Below are positions 4,000-51,675 of a stretch of DNA of 64,000 bases, piece by piece; positions within the stretch are counted from its first letter, which is position 1; each line of letters begins with the position of its first letter. The position numbers and the translations under genes were made by a program. Source of the stretch: Sipunculus nudus (taxonomy: Eukaryota > Annelida > Sipuncula > Golfingiida > Sipunculidae); the NCBI GenBank assembly GCA_026874595.1, contig CM049309.1:40811079-40875078 (forward strand). Direction: 5' to 3'. A model generated the notes under the pieces. That model did no database searches and was not told where the DNA came from. It saw only the letters and a list, made by a program, of their open reading frames with translations.

Positions 4000-4412
4000 A
4001 ATAAAAATTTAACAATAAATCTCTAGTTTGTGTTTCACTTTTTTTTTACTCTTTACAATGATCTGACAGGTGAGGAGTCTCCCTGCATGAGTAGCCATCT
4101 TTGTTTTAGCTGGTTATATTTTTATAGAGTTTACATGACATTGTCCAATGAGCAGCTGTCAGTTGATGTTGTTTTTGCATGTGACCAATGACCTTGACCG
4201 CCATGAGTGTTGCTGATAAGTTGTGAAATATAAACTTATTTCTCATATTTTATTAAAATAGTTTCTTAAATAATGTGCGAGGTAAGTAAGAACTTACTTT
4301 GTTGAAAATGAAGCCCTTTAATCTTCTACCACAAATTAATATTTTTTTTCCATTGAAATGTAACTAATAAAATTCCCATAACAAAAAAAAACAGTGGACA
4401 GGAGAGGATGAA
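4000..4412 (-). mobile_element. MITE, family 1, copy in reverse orientation
   Basis: The reverse complement reads tggtcacatgcaaaaacaac, tgacagctgctcattggac, atgtcatgtaaactctata, then accagctaaaacaaagatgg. This is the core of the elements at 19211-19725 and 56829-57328. The terminal tract ttttttttttgt preceded by cctgtccactg is kept at the 4412 end. The other end is eroded beyond about 4000. Confidence 0.75.
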
Positions 4413-19210: not shown

Positions 19211-19725
19211 CCCCTCACCTTTTTTTTTTTGCTATGAAAATTTTTATTAGTTACATATCCAGGGAAGCAATTATAGTGTAGGGTAGAGGATTAAAAGACC
19301 TAATTTTCAACAAGATAAACAAATTCCTACATTACACCTTATTAAAGAAACATAATTACTTAAAAATATGAGAAATCAGTCTACCTTTTACAACATATCA
19401 GACCAACTTATGGCAGTCAAGGTCATTGGTCACATGCAAAAACAGCCTCAATTGACGACTGCTGATTGGATGATGTCATGTAAACACTCTAAAAAATATA
19501 ACCAGCTGAAACAAAGATGGCTACTCATGCAGGGACACATCATATGTGCCTGATCATTGTGAAGAGACTAAACTGTTGTGCAACATAAACTGAGGATTTA
19601 TTGTAAAATTCTTAATTGCAATGTTGGATTGTCACTTCCATATGTAGTTTTCTAGAAATTATTTAAAAAAGTAAACTTTTAATAAAATAATCTACAAAAA
19701 AAAAACAGTAGGACAGTAGGTGGTG
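19211..19725 (+). mobile_element. MITE, family 1, about 515 bp
   Basis: The left end cccctcacct plus T10 is roughly inverted at the right end (A10, then cagtaggacagtaggtggtg). The core matches 56829-57328 and, reversed, 4000-4412: gctgattggatgatgtcatg and aaacaaagatggctactcat. No protein is encoded. Confidence 0.8.
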
Positions 19726-23035: not shown

Positions 23036-24995
23036 TGTATCCCCAGACAAAGTCGGGATACTATGGTTTCACGATTGTCCTGCCGCCGCCGCCACAGAAA
23101 AAACCTTGTGAGCAGGATAACTCAAAAAATATTTCACTGATCTTTTTCAAACTTAACATTTGTATAGATATAGGTTAGGGGACGAAGCCTATATAAAATG
23201 GGGTCATGACCTATGCTAGGAGAGTGACCTTGACCTTGAATAGGTCCATTTTTGCTGAAAATAACACAAATTCTTAAATATCTCAAGTAAGCTTGCATGG
23301 ACTGGTCCAAAAATCAAGGTGACAGAAGATCTTGGATAGCCTTGTGATATACTGGAAACTGGTGGCGCCACCTATTATCCTTTTCTTGTTTTTACGCCTT
23401 TTAATACCCCCATAATTGCCACTTGACAGTACTGTAAGCATTATAAGTCAAAAGCTAATGGACATATTTCTTTCATATTATGCACATAAAGAGAGATGGG
23501 TTATGGGATGAGGTCTATTTACATTAGGGTCATGACCTTTACCATGAGAGTGGCCTTGACCTTTAATGTGTCCAATTTTGGTGAAAATCACACACCTCTT
23601 ATGATATCTCCAGTGTTGATAGCCATATGGATTTCAAACGTGACTTATGTATGGCCCACCACTAAAGTAAGAACCCTATAGGTTCTAGGGTCATGAGGTC
23701 AAAGGTCAATGTCACTGGACTTGCATCTTAAAAGATACTGTGGATGCATTTTAAGCCAAACTTTCATCCCAGGTCTTCCATCGTGCACATATAGTTCACC
23801 TGCCAAGAGTGGAAGACCCCTATCAAATTTGAGGTCACAAGGTCAAAGGTGAAGGTCACAGGAGCCATCTGTCCAAAAATTAGTTTCTGGATGATAATTC
23901 CTGCATTTATTGATGTATAGATTTAAAACTTGACTTGTATATGTCCCATCGGAAAAGCAAGACCCAAATTGATTTTGGGGTCATGAGGTCAAAGGTCAAG
24001 GTCACAGGACACATCTTTAAAAAGATGTAGATGCATTTTCAGCCAAACATTTCATCTCAGATATTTCATCTTGCACATATAAATCACCTGCCAAGAGAGG
24101 AAGAACCCTATCAATTTTGAGGTCACAAGGTCAAAGGTGAAGGTCACAAGAGCCATCTGTCCAAAAATTAGTTTCTGGATGATAATTCCTGCTTTTATTG
24201 ATGTATAGATTTCAAACTTGACTTGTATATGTCCCTTTGGAAAAGCAAGACCTGAATTGATTTTTTGGTTATGAGGTCAAAGTCAAGGTCACAGGACACA
24301 TCTTTAAAAAGATTGTGGATACATTTCAGCCAAACAATTCATCTCAGATCTTTCATCTTGCACATATAGTTCTCCTGCCAAGAGTGAAAGACCCCTATCA
24401 AATTTGAGGTCACAAGGTCAAAGGTGAAGGTCACAGGAGCCATCTGACCAAAAATTAGTTTCTGGATGATAATACCGGCTTTTATTGATGTATGGATTTG
24501 AAACTTAACTTGTATATGTCCCATTGGAAAAGCAAGACCCGAATTGATTTTGGGGTCACAAGGTCAAAGGTGAAGGTCACAGGAGCCATCTGTCAAAAAA
24601 TTAGTTTCTGGATGATAATTCCTGCTTTTATTGATGTATAGATTTCAAACTTGACTTGTATATGTCCCATTGGAAAAGCAAGACCCGAATTGATTTTGGG
24701 GTCATAAGGTCAAAGGTCAAGGTCACAGGACACATCTTTAAAAAGATTCTGAATTCTTTTTTTAGCCAAACATTTCATCTCAGACATTTCATCAGTCCCA
24801 AAATCAAGTTGACAGAAGATCTTGGATAGCCTTGTGATGTGCCAAAAGGTCAAGGTCACAGGACCAACATCTTCAAAAAGATTGTGGATGGATAGATGCA
24901 AGAAACAATAATTGCTTGCCAAGTGTCAGTATATGCTGCTAAAAATTGGGGCCTATTCTTAAAGGGGGGGGGGGCGTAATATGTCTGGGGATACA
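23036..24995 (+). mobile_element. TIR element, about 1.96 kb, filled with AGGTCA-rich tandem units
   Basis: The ends are perfect inverted repeats, tgtatccccagaca at 23036-23049 and tgtctggggataca at 24982-24995. Inside, units of about 286 bp (gatgataattcc at 23892, 24178, 24466; a half-unit at 24612) each carry aggtcaaaggtcaaggtcac and aggtcacaaggtcaaaggtg. They are homologous to the array at 12728-13745. A G-run lies just inside the right end. No protein is encoded and no clear target duplication was found. Confidence 0.83.
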
Positions 24996-27199: not shown

Positions 27200-28266
27200 G
27201 TAAGTCATCCTCACCCAACCTCATCCTAGCTAGAATCACCAAGTCCAGGTTGCCGTAACTGATGGAACATTCCCTATTAATAGTGGAACAGTGTTGCCAA
27301 ATGGGAATGCTCCAACAGTAACAAAGTCAGTTACACAGACCTTTCCTTGCGCTCAGTTCCTGGTACTAGCTATAGGTTCAAGATACTGCAGGAATACAGA
27401 ATCATTGGTGCCTGCCCTATCCACAGTTTGTTTAGTCTGAACTTGAAAGTTCAGACAGCCCAAAGCTTGTCCAGTAACAAGTGTCCAGTACAGCAGCCAG
27501 CTGGTAAAGGTCGGCATGATTAGCTTACTACAACAGCATCCTCACTTACTGACTCAAATATACTTCTCTGTTTACAAAATAAACTGCCAAGCTAAGTTAA
27601 AGGTGCCTATTCAGATGTCTGACATTTATTGGCTCAAGATAATCCCTATCTCTTAGTCAACAATGCTGTGTTTACTAACAGCATGTAGATAAACAAGCTT
27701 ATAAATCCGCCACAGGTTATCACTTTCAGAACTTTTCCTAACAGGACAGCTAGAGTTCATTAATATTATATTTACTCAGAGTCAGCCAGAAATGCTAGAG
27801 AAATGGTTGGCGAAATGGTAGGCTTTTACAGCATCATACTTTGATTTATCCCTTGTGGATCATTAATGCATCTGTTCTGATCTTCTCAGACTTTGATATT
27901 CCTTGTGCAGTATGAAAACAACCAACTTGTAACCAGTACATATTATTAATGTGTGTACTGTGTACATATATTAAGAATGTCTGAAAACAATAATTGACAC
28001 ATATTGTAAAAGATTTTTGTCAGTGTGTACCTCCATGCTGTCAGTGTGGGTGTTTGTTATGCATGTGTGTGCTTTTAGTATGTCTGGTATATATCAGGTG
28101 ACATTACAGGTGTCCTCAAGATAAATCTGTATGGTGCATTTGAGGTTGATACTCATGGATTGCCTACTCACTGGGCAGAGGAAAGAATTTCCAGATTTGC
28201 TGCTTACAATTCATTTCATTAAATGAAGAGTCATGAGTCCATATAAAGCCTGAAGTCCTTGTTTAC

Positions 28267-29141
28267 CACAGGCACTCGTTTCCAGCACTAAAATGGCCTA
28301 GAAACCGAAAACACATTGAGTATTGGCGATATACCCATTATAAGAGAACAAGGTAATGAACTCCATCGCTACGCGGGCAAGACAACTTTTTTTCACAAGT
28401 CCAAATTCCGGAGAATTATCCACTTCACAAGCATGATCGCGCGCCTTTTTGTTCAAAAAACATCTTTATTTACAAGATTAAACTTCCAAATATAAAAGTT
28501 CCCACACTAATCGCGAATTCAAGCACGTTTATTTCAGCTGCGACGCCGTCATTTGGCATGTATACATTTACTAGTTGCGGAAGTTGACGTCACCCCGGGC
28601 TGAATGGATTTCCCCCGAGCTGGCGTCTGTGATTGGCTGCATGGTACCAGTCGTTTTCTACATCTCTTTTAGGCACATAATTCAAACAGCTGTTAAATTG
28701 TCAATGAAGTTGAAAATCAGTGGGCATGGCATGCAAACACAACCAGGACCATTAAATCACTTGTTTTGTATACATTAACGTCTGTTCTATAACCATAACA
28801 TACATTATGCCCGGGGTGACGTCAACTTCCGCAACTAGTAAATGTATACATGCCAAATGACGGCGTCGCAGCTGAAATAAACGTGCTTGAATTCGCGATT
28901 AGTGTGGGGAACTTTTATATTTGGAAGTTTAATCTTGTAAATAAAGATGTTTTCAACAAAAAGGCGCGCGATCATGCTTGTGAAGCGGATAATTCTCCGG
29001 AATTCGGCCTTGTGAAAAAAAGTTGTCATGCCCGCGTAGCGGTGGAGTTCATAACCTTGTTCTTTTATAATGGGTATATCGCCCATACTTAATGTGTTTT
29101 TGGTTTCTAGGCCATTTTAGTGCTGGATTCGAGTGCCTGTG
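28267..29141. mobile_element. Foldback transposon, 875 bp, with 334-bp inverted arms
   Basis: The left arm (28267-28600) and right arm (28809-29141) are near-perfect inverted repeats around a 208-bp centre. Ends read CACAGGCACTCG and its complement CGAGTGCCTGTG. TTGTTTAC directly flanks both sides (28259-28266 and 29142-29149), an 8-bp target-site duplication. The inner ends meet at cgtcaccccgggc / gcccggggtgacg. The arms are unusually CpG-rich for this window (gacggcgtcgcagctg, gcgcgcgatcatg). No transposase is encoded. An 8-bp duplication fits the hAT superfamily and some others. The few differences between arms suggest recent insertion or ongoing arm conversion. Confidence 0.93.
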
Positions 29142-29184
29142 TTGTTTACCCTAACCACTGTGTCAACTGCATGGCACAGGATAC

Positions 29185-29510
29185 TTTCCCCCTGAAATTA
29201 ACAGACCTATAAAATTACATAGACAGCTTTTCTCTTGGACCTTTTAAATGACAAAGAACACTTTCTTCCTTAAATCAACAAATCTATCAGTATAGATGAC
29301 TCAAAAGGCCTTTTCTCCTGAAATCAACAGACTTATGAAAAGACACAAAAGGCCTTTTCTCCTGAAATCAACAGACTTATGAAATGACACAAGAGGCCTT
29401 TTCTCTTGAAATCAACAGACTTATGAAATGACACAAGAACCCTTTTCTCCTGAAATCAACTGACTTATGAAATGACACAGAGCCCTTCACTCCTGAAATC
29501 AACAACCCCA
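29185..29510 (+). repeat. Minisatellite, 44-bp unit, about 5 clear copies plus degenerate ones
   Basis: ttttctcctgaaatcaacag followed by acttatgaaatgacacaaga recurs at 29311, 29355, 29399, 29443 and about 29486. Degenerate copies lie upstream from 29185. It starts about 40 bp after the foldback element. Confidence 0.9.
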
Positions 29511-40987: not shown

Positions 40988-41184
40988 GATTCTTTCAAAG
41001 TATTACTTTTCAGTTTATTTTTTTCTACCTCTGTTTGGAATTCTATAAATTTCATACAGTATGAAGGGTTCTTGGTATTAGGCTAGGGCTCAAGATTTTA
41101 ATTGATGAAAATTTTGCAGGAATCTTAATTTTCAAATCCTGTGCAGTGTGGCATCAATTAAGTTTTTGACTTTTTTTTTTACAG

Positions 41185-41438
41185 AGTGCCATCATGCCTT
41201 AGAGCTGCTGGAGAGACTGCAACAGAAGCTGGAGGAGACTGGGGACAGCAGCCATGACCAGGAACTGACCCAGCTCATCTGTATGCTGGACAGTCCACTT
41301 TTCTCTCAGCTTCTTAGCATCCAGGACTCTATCCAGCAGCTGAAGAGGGTGTCGCAGCAGCAGTCCCTGACCATCGATGACTTTGACATCACATCCAGCG
41401 GAGAAGTCATCTTTGCCAATGGAATTAATCAGTCCCAG
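41185..41438 (+). CDS. MPDZ: MPDZ/PATJ-like scaffold, exon encoding the L27 domain
   Basis: This exon completes residue 7 and encodes residues 8-91. Its acceptor is a T10 tract plus acag ending at 41184; its donor is CAG|GTAATT at 41438/41439. Residues 8-60 or so (ECHHALELLERLQQKL through SPLFSQLLSIQDSIQQLK) are a clear L27 domain, a helical module that heterodimerises. In MPDZ and PATJ the N-terminal L27 binds PALS1/MPP5, linking the scaffold to the Crumbs apical-polarity complex at cell junctions. The SPLF plus L-Q-x-S-x-x-Q-L pattern is close to what I remember of human MPDZ and PATJ. The following segment SLTIDDFDITSSGEVIFANG recalls the post-L27 region of insect Patj. The intron phases are 1 on the 5' side and 0 on the 3' side, so skipping this exon would shift the frame. 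An alternative acceptor two bases on gives an early stop. Identity as MPDZ/PATJ family is strong; choosing between the two paralogues is not meaningful in an invertebrate. Confidence 0.93.
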
Positions 41439-49935: not shown

Positions 49936-50219
49936 TTCTAAGGAACCACTGGATGGATTGTTTTGGAATATGGAATGGTCATTGGCCTTGATGATCTCGA
50001 AAGTGCTGCATGACTCACAAAGACTGGGGCCAGACTTAAAAAGTTCATACCTCTCTAGTTCCAATTCACAACTTGAACAAAAGACATATGTACAGATATA
50101 CATCCATGTGAGAACAAATATTACATGAATACTTGTTACTGTTACCACCCATAAATACTGCTCTTTTGGCTGAGGGCTTTTGTCAGCTTTTGCTGATATT
50201 CTAGTATTTTTCTGTAATT

Positions 50220-51070
50220 AATGACTGAGCGAGCAATGTTGATCTCTATCTCGTCTACGTCTAAACAAGAAATGCCGTACGGTCAGGAAATATCTGTTTA
50301 TTATAAAAGCTATTAATAAAATGAAATAAATTTACAAAGGCAGGTAAAAAGAAACACATCCAAAAAAAATACAGTTGCCTATATGCTATGCCTGTTCTGA
50401 TCAGCTGTGGCCGGTAGAAACGATGTGTCAGACACCTCGCAAAACCCTGTCATGATCGCCACAGAACTGACAAAATCACGCAACTCTTGTAATACCAAAC
50501 ATCTGATTTGTGGAGATCGTGCGTTGCACATCGTCAGTTGCATATTCCATTAAATAGGCCCGCTTCATTTGCTTGATATAGGCCTACTCACGGTGCCACC
50601 GTGAGTGTTGCTGAAAAATTATAACCAGCGTAAGCGACACGATGTCAGTGAACATTTTCCCGCCAAAATAGTGATGAATGAAGTCATATGGGGTGAACTT
50701 TTACTACGGACCTCTTATTGGCTCTCTGGCTATGACGCGTGACCGCTCCGCCAATCACAAGATCGTTTGCGTGGGCCAGGCACGTGATTATGCAAATCAA
50801 CATGTCACATGGTTTAAATGCCAACATTGGTAAGTTGACAGTATGAATGTCGAGAGAACTTTCATTTAATCAGTTAATGCGATAGCGGTAAGCTTCCGCT
50901 TTATTTGAAATCAAATAAGAACCATTTCTAATTGCTCAATATTTTTTTTTCAGCCTGTTTCGCCAGAACAACGAAATTTGATGGTGGTTTCCCGGCAGTT
51001 TTTCTACTCTCGCGCCCGAGTGTAGCGATCGTTCAACGTGTATATATATAGGCACAACCTGACTAATTGT
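50220..51070. promoter_or_regulatory. CpG-rich islet with promoter-type motifs
   Basis: Motifs cluster within 85 bp: an inverted CCAAT (50717-50721), CCAAT (50751-50755), E-box CACGTG (50781-50786) and octamer ATGCAAAT (50790-50797). A donor-like ATTG|GTAAGT follows at 50829/50830. A 21-bp palindrome lies at 50586-50606. This could be an internal promoter of the MPDZ-like gene or of an unseen transcript. No initiator, TATA box or open frame confirms it. Confidence 0.3.
50586..50606. other. Perfect 21-bp palindrome
   Basis: ACTCACGGTG and CACCGTGAGT are exact complements around a single C at 50596. Symmetry of this kind suits binding by a dimeric factor; which one is unknown. Confidence 0.85.
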
Positions 51071-51282
51071 TAGGGCTCAAATTAAACGATCGGCAACGTT
51101 GGGTAATACCTTTCATTATGGAAATTAAGTGCATCTAAAAATGTAATAGAAGGACTATTTTTCTAGCACATGAAGGCAGATTTTTACGGGCCCAGGTGCT
51201 TGTGGCAGATCATATAAAAATATTAATTTGCAGATATGACAAAAAAAAATTCCAAACGCAGCCAAAAATCACGACCGGCCGG

Positions 51283-51316
51283 GTTAGCCCCAACACAGAA
51301 CTTTTTAAGGATGGCC
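51283..51316 (-). repeat. Short dispersed motif, copy 2 (inverted partner of 47445-47478)
   Basis: gttagccccaacacagaact followed by ttttaaggatggcc is the reverse complement of 47445-47478 with one or two changes. Confidence 0.65.
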
Positions 51317-51675
51317 TAAATTTTTTCAACAACATGTTCTGTTGAGGTTTTGTACTCAGAATGACATCCAAGCTTTGGACATGTTTTTGAACTAGCTTTG
51401 GAACCATTCATTAGCTATGTGATCTAAGTATTAAACCATATGTCATGTAATTCATCTTGTGGAATTCATGTCACTAACATGATTTACTTTAGGCAGCTCA
51501 GGTTTAAATATCATGTCTCTTTTTAAGACAAAGAAATTGTCACCATTTCAGAGAGAGTACCAGCGGTCATTGTCACTGTTTCAGGAAGAGTAAGATGACA
51601 AGAAGAGGTTTCTTGTTATGTTATCTAAACCAGAAGAGTATAACATTGTCATCAGATTAGTAAGAGTACAATCAG

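Follow-up and report, generated by a model that had tools for sequence, protein, structure and literature searches.

The 875-bp foldback element at positions 28267-29141 of the window (the 64,000-nucleotide stretch of Sipunculus nudus DNA analyzed here) is very probably a non-autonomous, internally deleted derivative of a two-gene transposon of the P superfamily, about 13 kb long, whose transposase would move it in trans. At the level of sequence this reading is supported by common ends, a common duplication length, homology of both arm and centre, two coding regions and the repeated linkage of the two genes. The element itself is of an ordinary non-autonomous foldback kind, and its source seems to be a variant of the P superfamily not described before. 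The original prediction could not assign the element to a family; the assignment has now been obtained through large elements that encode a P-type transposase.

Table 1. Features of the window element and the nearest recognised exon (positions are those of the window)
Feature	Positions	Strand	Size or evidence
Left target site duplication TTGTTTAC	28259..28266	.	8 bp
Left terminal inverted repeat arm, begins CACAGGCACTCG	28267..28609	+	Left-end match to large P-type element
Centre, about 190 bp, kept across the family	28610..28799	+	Comparison with copies and large element
Right terminal inverted repeat arm, ends CGAGTGCCTGTG	28800..29141	-	Arm alignment
Right target site duplication TTGTTTAC	29142..29149	.	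8 bp
L27-domain exon, PATJ-like (PALS1-associated tight junction protein) gene	41160..41420	+	Pfam L27_2 3.2e-13; PATJ L27 domains top the PDB matches

The predicted foldback transposon and its 8-bp target duplication are borne out by the two inverted arms and by the same octamer on both sides (Table 1). Alignment of positions 28267-28610 with 28800-29141 gives 94.5% identity over 344 columns, in keeping with the earlier description of the arms as almost identical, and the termini, CACAGGCACTCG and CGAGTGCCTGTG, are perfect over 12 nt. The inverted-arm structure stands with revised dimensions, the arms being slightly longer than first given (about 343 instead of 334 bp) and the centre shorter (about 190 instead of 208 bp). 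The perfect duplex that had been envisaged has to be given up, because the 334-bp arms differ by 13 mismatches and 3 gap columns over 335 columns. All 13 mismatches fall within the outer 190 columns, and the inner 145 columns contain a single 1-nt gap. The repeat listing of the window holds no inverted repeat longer than these arms, and no tandem repeats inside the arm. The CpG richness noticed earlier is pronounced, with observed/expected ratios of 1.30 and 1.35 in the arms vs. 0.14 in the flanks and 0.32 in the window as a whole. A protein encoded in the arms was considered and set aside, the two open frames there, which overlap and are 90 and 93 amino acids long, being without a Pfam match.

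A search of the genome (1.43 Gb) with the element sequence, as had been proposed, uncovered a dispersed family: the 30-letter end has 177 exact matches (91 + 86), compared to 0 for the reversed control, and the places of the first 100 of the 177 are spread over many contigs. The arm search scored 40 of 643 candidates and the centre search 40 of 178, and all copy numbers given here are accordingly lower bounds. Twenty-four distinct full-length copies of 872-878 bp, the window copy included, were obtained as the best matches to the window copy and not as a random sample. They differ from their majority sequence by 1.7-4.6%, the window copy by 3.3% (rank 21st of 24), and 22 of them have a perfect 8-bp duplication. 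With the same structure present elsewhere in this way, we rejected an assembly artefact at a single place, and such an artefact is unlikely for the window locus. Among 18 further close end pairs, 16 measure 79-181 bp and two measure 413 and 706 bp, with a perfect 8-bp duplication in 11 of the 18; this second size class is little more than ends. By eye, 4 of the 16 short pairs were recognised as carrying arms of the large-element type. Three short end copies on one contig (C4:55650242, 55665671 and 55681105) have a spacing of 15.4 kb, which suggests a tandemly duplicated segment. Five solo arms bordered by unrelated sequence (L062, L067, L078, L083 and L086) were tried as ends of large elements and discarded, having no partner end in the fetched DNA; they are read as truncated copies. 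The inner 26-mer of the arm found nothing in viral contigs.

Taking all sizes together, 40 of 50 distinct end pairs carry a perfect duplication, and the symmetrised consensus of the 40 distinct duplications is GTYNNRAC. The Drosophila P element has the target consensus GTCCGGAC, which the duplications match at a mean of 3.2 of 8 positions, a value that 0 of 5000 shuffles attained (shuffle mean 2.1). Their palindromy is barely over that of shuffles (0.34 vs. 0.27, p 0.03).

The original prediction had taken the likeness of the arms as a sign of youth, a conclusion that the family comparison does not sustain. Within a copy, the left arm diverges from the right by 5.8% on average; between copies, left arms diverge by 4.5% and right arms by 5.3%. 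Because the divergence within copies exceeds the same-side divergence between copies, the arms must for the most part have differed already in the founders, and their likeness does not serve as a clock. The mean divergence of left from right arms between copies is 6.7%, and the lower value within copies leaves room for arm exchange or subfamilies. At the diagnostic columns 248, 271 and 293 the left arm of the window copy has right-arm letters, as only 1 of the 24 left arms does. This fits a transfer of right-arm sequence to the left arm in the window copy, which would explain its identical inner arms. On another contig (C7:60954386-60956184, locus L016), two copies whose 875 bp are the same throughout lie as mirror images with 49 bp between them and have different 8-bp duplications, CTTTGGAC and CTTGGCGC. 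Such an arrangement, seen in this one pair, is consistent with a recent short-range hop, and "local hopping" is known for the Drosophila P element (PMC7776569). Recent movement in the family is suggested by this pair together with the nearly identical arms and the perfect duplications.

The 12-nt ends of the window element recur, as an inverted pair, at two large elements, each of them bounded by a perfect 8-bp duplication. One, at C8:5063691-5082626, is 18,936 bp long with AGCAAGGT at both outer flanks, and the other, at C16:5759114-5772430, is 13,317 bp long with GTTCTATT at both outer flanks. The sole difference between the arms of the C8 element is one 3-nt gap, and the C16 arms have one mismatch in the first 342 columns. 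The difference in size is mainly due to an insertion of about 5.6 kb nested at a duplicated TTAA within the C8 transposase gene (L110 ~1250 to L111 ~1870); such TTAA flanks are what piggyBac or Kolobok transposons would leave. Positions 1-377 of the window element align to the left end of the C8 element with 89% identity over 380 columns, and its positions 311-524 (28577-28790 of the window, including the inner arm end) are 73% like the left subterminal stretch. Because arm and centre both match this left end, the window element reads as a left end plus a right arm with the middle gone. From the arms of these large copies the window copy differs by 11%, and its direct parent may belong to an unsampled subfamily. 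Besides the insertion, the C8 transposase contains a further frame break, and that of C16 is broken upstream of the first catalytic motif; neither sampled large copy thus has an unbroken transposase frame.

The DDE transposase with an RNase H fold of the P type, characteristic of the P superfamily, was recognised in the large element by its match to PF21787 (TNP-like_RNaseH_N). In C8 the gene lies on the + strand, with the match at L110:1-1254 (25.5 bits, cut-off 24.6), and continues at L111:1931-2878; a match to PF21789 is weak (0.031). A helicase-linked paralogue on contig C15, a 798-aa open frame, matches PF21787 at 63.4 bits (E 3.6e-17) and aligns to both C8 exons (466 columns at 27% identity, 292 columns at 39%). 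In both proteins, DEM, D..H and E were picked out by eye as candidate catalytic motifs. No Pfam match was obtained for the GTP-binding insertion domain, while the stretch between D..H and E is present and aligns between the two families. An N-terminal THAP domain, usual in the superfamily and not universal, gave no Pfam match in the transposases scanned, and the + strand of L109-L111 contains no in-frame C2CH of THAP spacing, a scan that would miss an intron-split domain. The N-terminal parts instead match the RFX DNA-binding domain at 24.1 and 16.5 bits, values under the Pfam cut-off of 27 and from stretches chosen post hoc, so that the transposase start is apparently RFX-like rather than THAP. 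Comparison with the PDB by sequence gave no match for the 316-aa exon (E up to 1) or for the 798-aa transposase, whether taken whole (E up to 0.1) or by its start (E up to 10); for the 418-aa exon there were just 4 matches, all weak and to unrelated chains (E 0.25-0.35). The 798-aa transposase likewise found nothing in viral contigs.

The second gene of the C8 element, on the strand opposite the transposase, encodes a helicase with matches to PIF1 (PF05970, 59.2 bits, cut-off 25.9) and Pif1 2B (30.3 bits, cut-off 23.9), and its nearest PDB sequences are PIF1. A Walker-A-like GQAGTGKS was found by eye in an upstream exon, and the end of the last exon encodes a C-terminal PHD finger (26.4 bits, cut-off 24). 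The frame is divided into two overlapping frames in C8 and is a single 976-aa frame without a stop in C16; the helicase exon is 100% identical between the two over 272 residues. To place both genes in the genome, 92 of 92 candidates were scored for the transposase (74 matches, 51 loci) and 141 of 183 for the helicase (99 matches, 32 loci at E <= 1e-6, loci merged by hand). At 18 of the 32 helicase loci a transposase match lies less than 10 kb away, compared to about 0.02 linked loci expected by uniform chance (computed with 31 of the 32); the other 14 have none within 10 kb. The genes are arranged tail to tail at 11 linked loci, head to head at 6 and on the same strand at 1, i.e. on opposite strands at 17 of 18, and the same-strand case is a fragment whose locus has a tail-to-tail match as well. 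The linked loci include near-identical duplicates, and the 18 pairings are therefore not 18 independent events: the head-to-head loci C3:37352600-37364000 and C6:30953780-30965180 are about 99% identical, nearly all of the fetched flanks included (1,801 and 2,070 bp), and with the likeness extending so far the ends of these relatives were not found. Because the transposase exons at linked loci span 31% to 98% identity to the query, the pairing appears to be old in this genome.

Among the known P elements with foldback ends, Galileo of Drosophila comes closest according to the published accounts consulted. It is described as having a P-superfamily transposase and Foldback-like inverted ends of 0.5-1.2 kb (PMC4168063, PMC3688188), and it shares with the elements studied here the unusually long inverted ends and the foldback appearance. 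It differs from them in its duplications, mostly 7 bp of the form GTANTAC, and in its THAP transposase; here the duplications are of 8 bp and fit GTYNNRAC, no THAP was seen, and a PIF1-PHD helicase is present, so the window family does not belong to Galileo itself. The Drosophila P element and the zebrafish THAP9/P-like elements also show 8-bp duplications, an RNase H transposase of the P type and internally deleted copies (PMC7776569). Their ends, in contrast, measure 31 or 13 bp and not about 340 bp, they have a THAP domain, the Drosophila P element is 2.9 kb long, and the descriptions available name no helicase gene (PMC7776569), whereas the large element has one. DDE transposons with a helicase gene are described as KolobokH (PMC9587614) and AcademH (PMC10799480); both belong to other superfamilies, however, and in KolobokH the helicase is RecQ and not PIF1, the target of Kolobok being TTAA (PMC9587614). 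The pairing of a P-superfamily transposase with PIF1 was not found described in the open-licence literature searched, and a P entry with a helicase may exist in Repbase.

Foldback architecture is also typical of the sea urchin TU elements, Drosophila FB and plant foldbacks, and TU duplications are 8 bp. The arms of TU and FB contain tandem repeats, in contrast to the arm of the window element with none listed. To our knowledge, the best-studied members of the P superfamily carry a transposase gene only. With the large element, this superfamily would gain an accessory helicase along with a chromatin-reading finger.

An 8-bp duplication, within the 7-8 bp of the P superfamily, is on its own also common among hAT elements, and a family described as Mutator/Foldback, Tm1, has been published. 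It is nevertheless very unlikely that the window element is a non-autonomous member of hAT or Mutator, linked to the P-type elements only by coincidentally shared ends. The two large elements that have these ends and 8-bp duplications encode a P-type and not a hAT transposase, the homology to the large element extends beyond the arm into the centre, and the window element starts with CACAG, which fits the P consensus 5'-CANRG and not the hAT consensus YARNG. A functional role as RNA, the intronic hairpin being selected for editing or small-RNA production, appears very improbable. The predicted hairpin is strong, the whole element folding at -625 kcal/mol vs. -217 (sd 8) for 20 shuffles, and its RNA would form one long, near-perfect hairpin; foldback copies would fold so wherever they are inserted, however, and the copies are spread over many contigs. 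Moreover, no Rfam family matches anywhere in the window at gathering scores.

The derivation of the window element from a P-type transposon being preferred, there is still the question of whether the helicase belongs to that transposon or is a stray passenger without a role, e.g. a Helitron fragment lodged inside it. PIF1 helicases are typical of Helitrons, the C8 element already holds another nested insertion, and 14 helicase loci are without a transposase in the neighbourhood. On the other hand, Helitrons encode a Rep/HUH nuclease fused to the helicase and make no target duplication, while the large elements have inverted ends and 8-bp duplications, and the Helitron N-terminal domain is absent from the 12 C8 frames scanned, which are part of the frames of that element. 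The pairing at more than half of the helicase loci, almost always on opposite strands and with transposase exons of widely varying identity, as well as the identity of the helicase exon in both large copies, likewise argues against a passenger, with the caveat that some loci are duplicates and that the order is head to head at 6 of 18. On balance, we consider a passenger unlikely.

For the window element the most likely course of events is as follows. Internal deletion would have kept the inverted ends of about 340 bp and some 180 bp of left subterminal sequence, the rest being lost. The P-type transposase of the large element would bind the long ends of the window copy and excise it, and reinsertion would follow by cut-and-paste at 8-bp staggered, GTYNNRAC-like sites. 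The PIF1-type helicase may unwind the long hairpin ends, aid their replication or otherwise take part in transposition, and the PHD finger may read chromatin and guide the complex to particular chromatin. It has long been asked why foldback elements have inverted ends of hundreds of bases and by what means hairpins of this kind are replicated and excised; a P-type transposon equipped with a PIF1 helicase would provide an answer open to test. A broader proposal, which we regard as possible if rather doubtful, is that animals harbour a branch of the P superfamily with very long foldback ends, an RFX-type transposase and a PIF1-PHD helicase dedicated to the hairpin ends, in which architecture and cargo co-evolved and of which the window element is a non-autonomous offspring.

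The nearest recognised exon encodes an L27 domain; it belongs to a PATJ-like gene and lies about 12 kb downstream from the window element (Table 1). An exon 1 upstream of the element was not found, and intron 1, in which the original prediction placed it, is a tentative location. The left flank is single-copy, and this genome therefore offers no duplicate of it that could serve as an empty insertion site. A 44-bp tandem repeat of about five copies occupies positions 29296-29504 of the window and starts 147 bp to the right of the element's duplication. Farther away the window contains tandem arrays at 845-2996 (unit about 340 bp) and 23688-24737 (unit about 287/146 bp), a pair of dispersed repeats in opposite orientation that are 83-85% alike (4049-4251 and 19363-19566), and a second CpG-rich patch at 50201-51375 with up to 43 CpG per 875 bases vs. 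a mean of 9.
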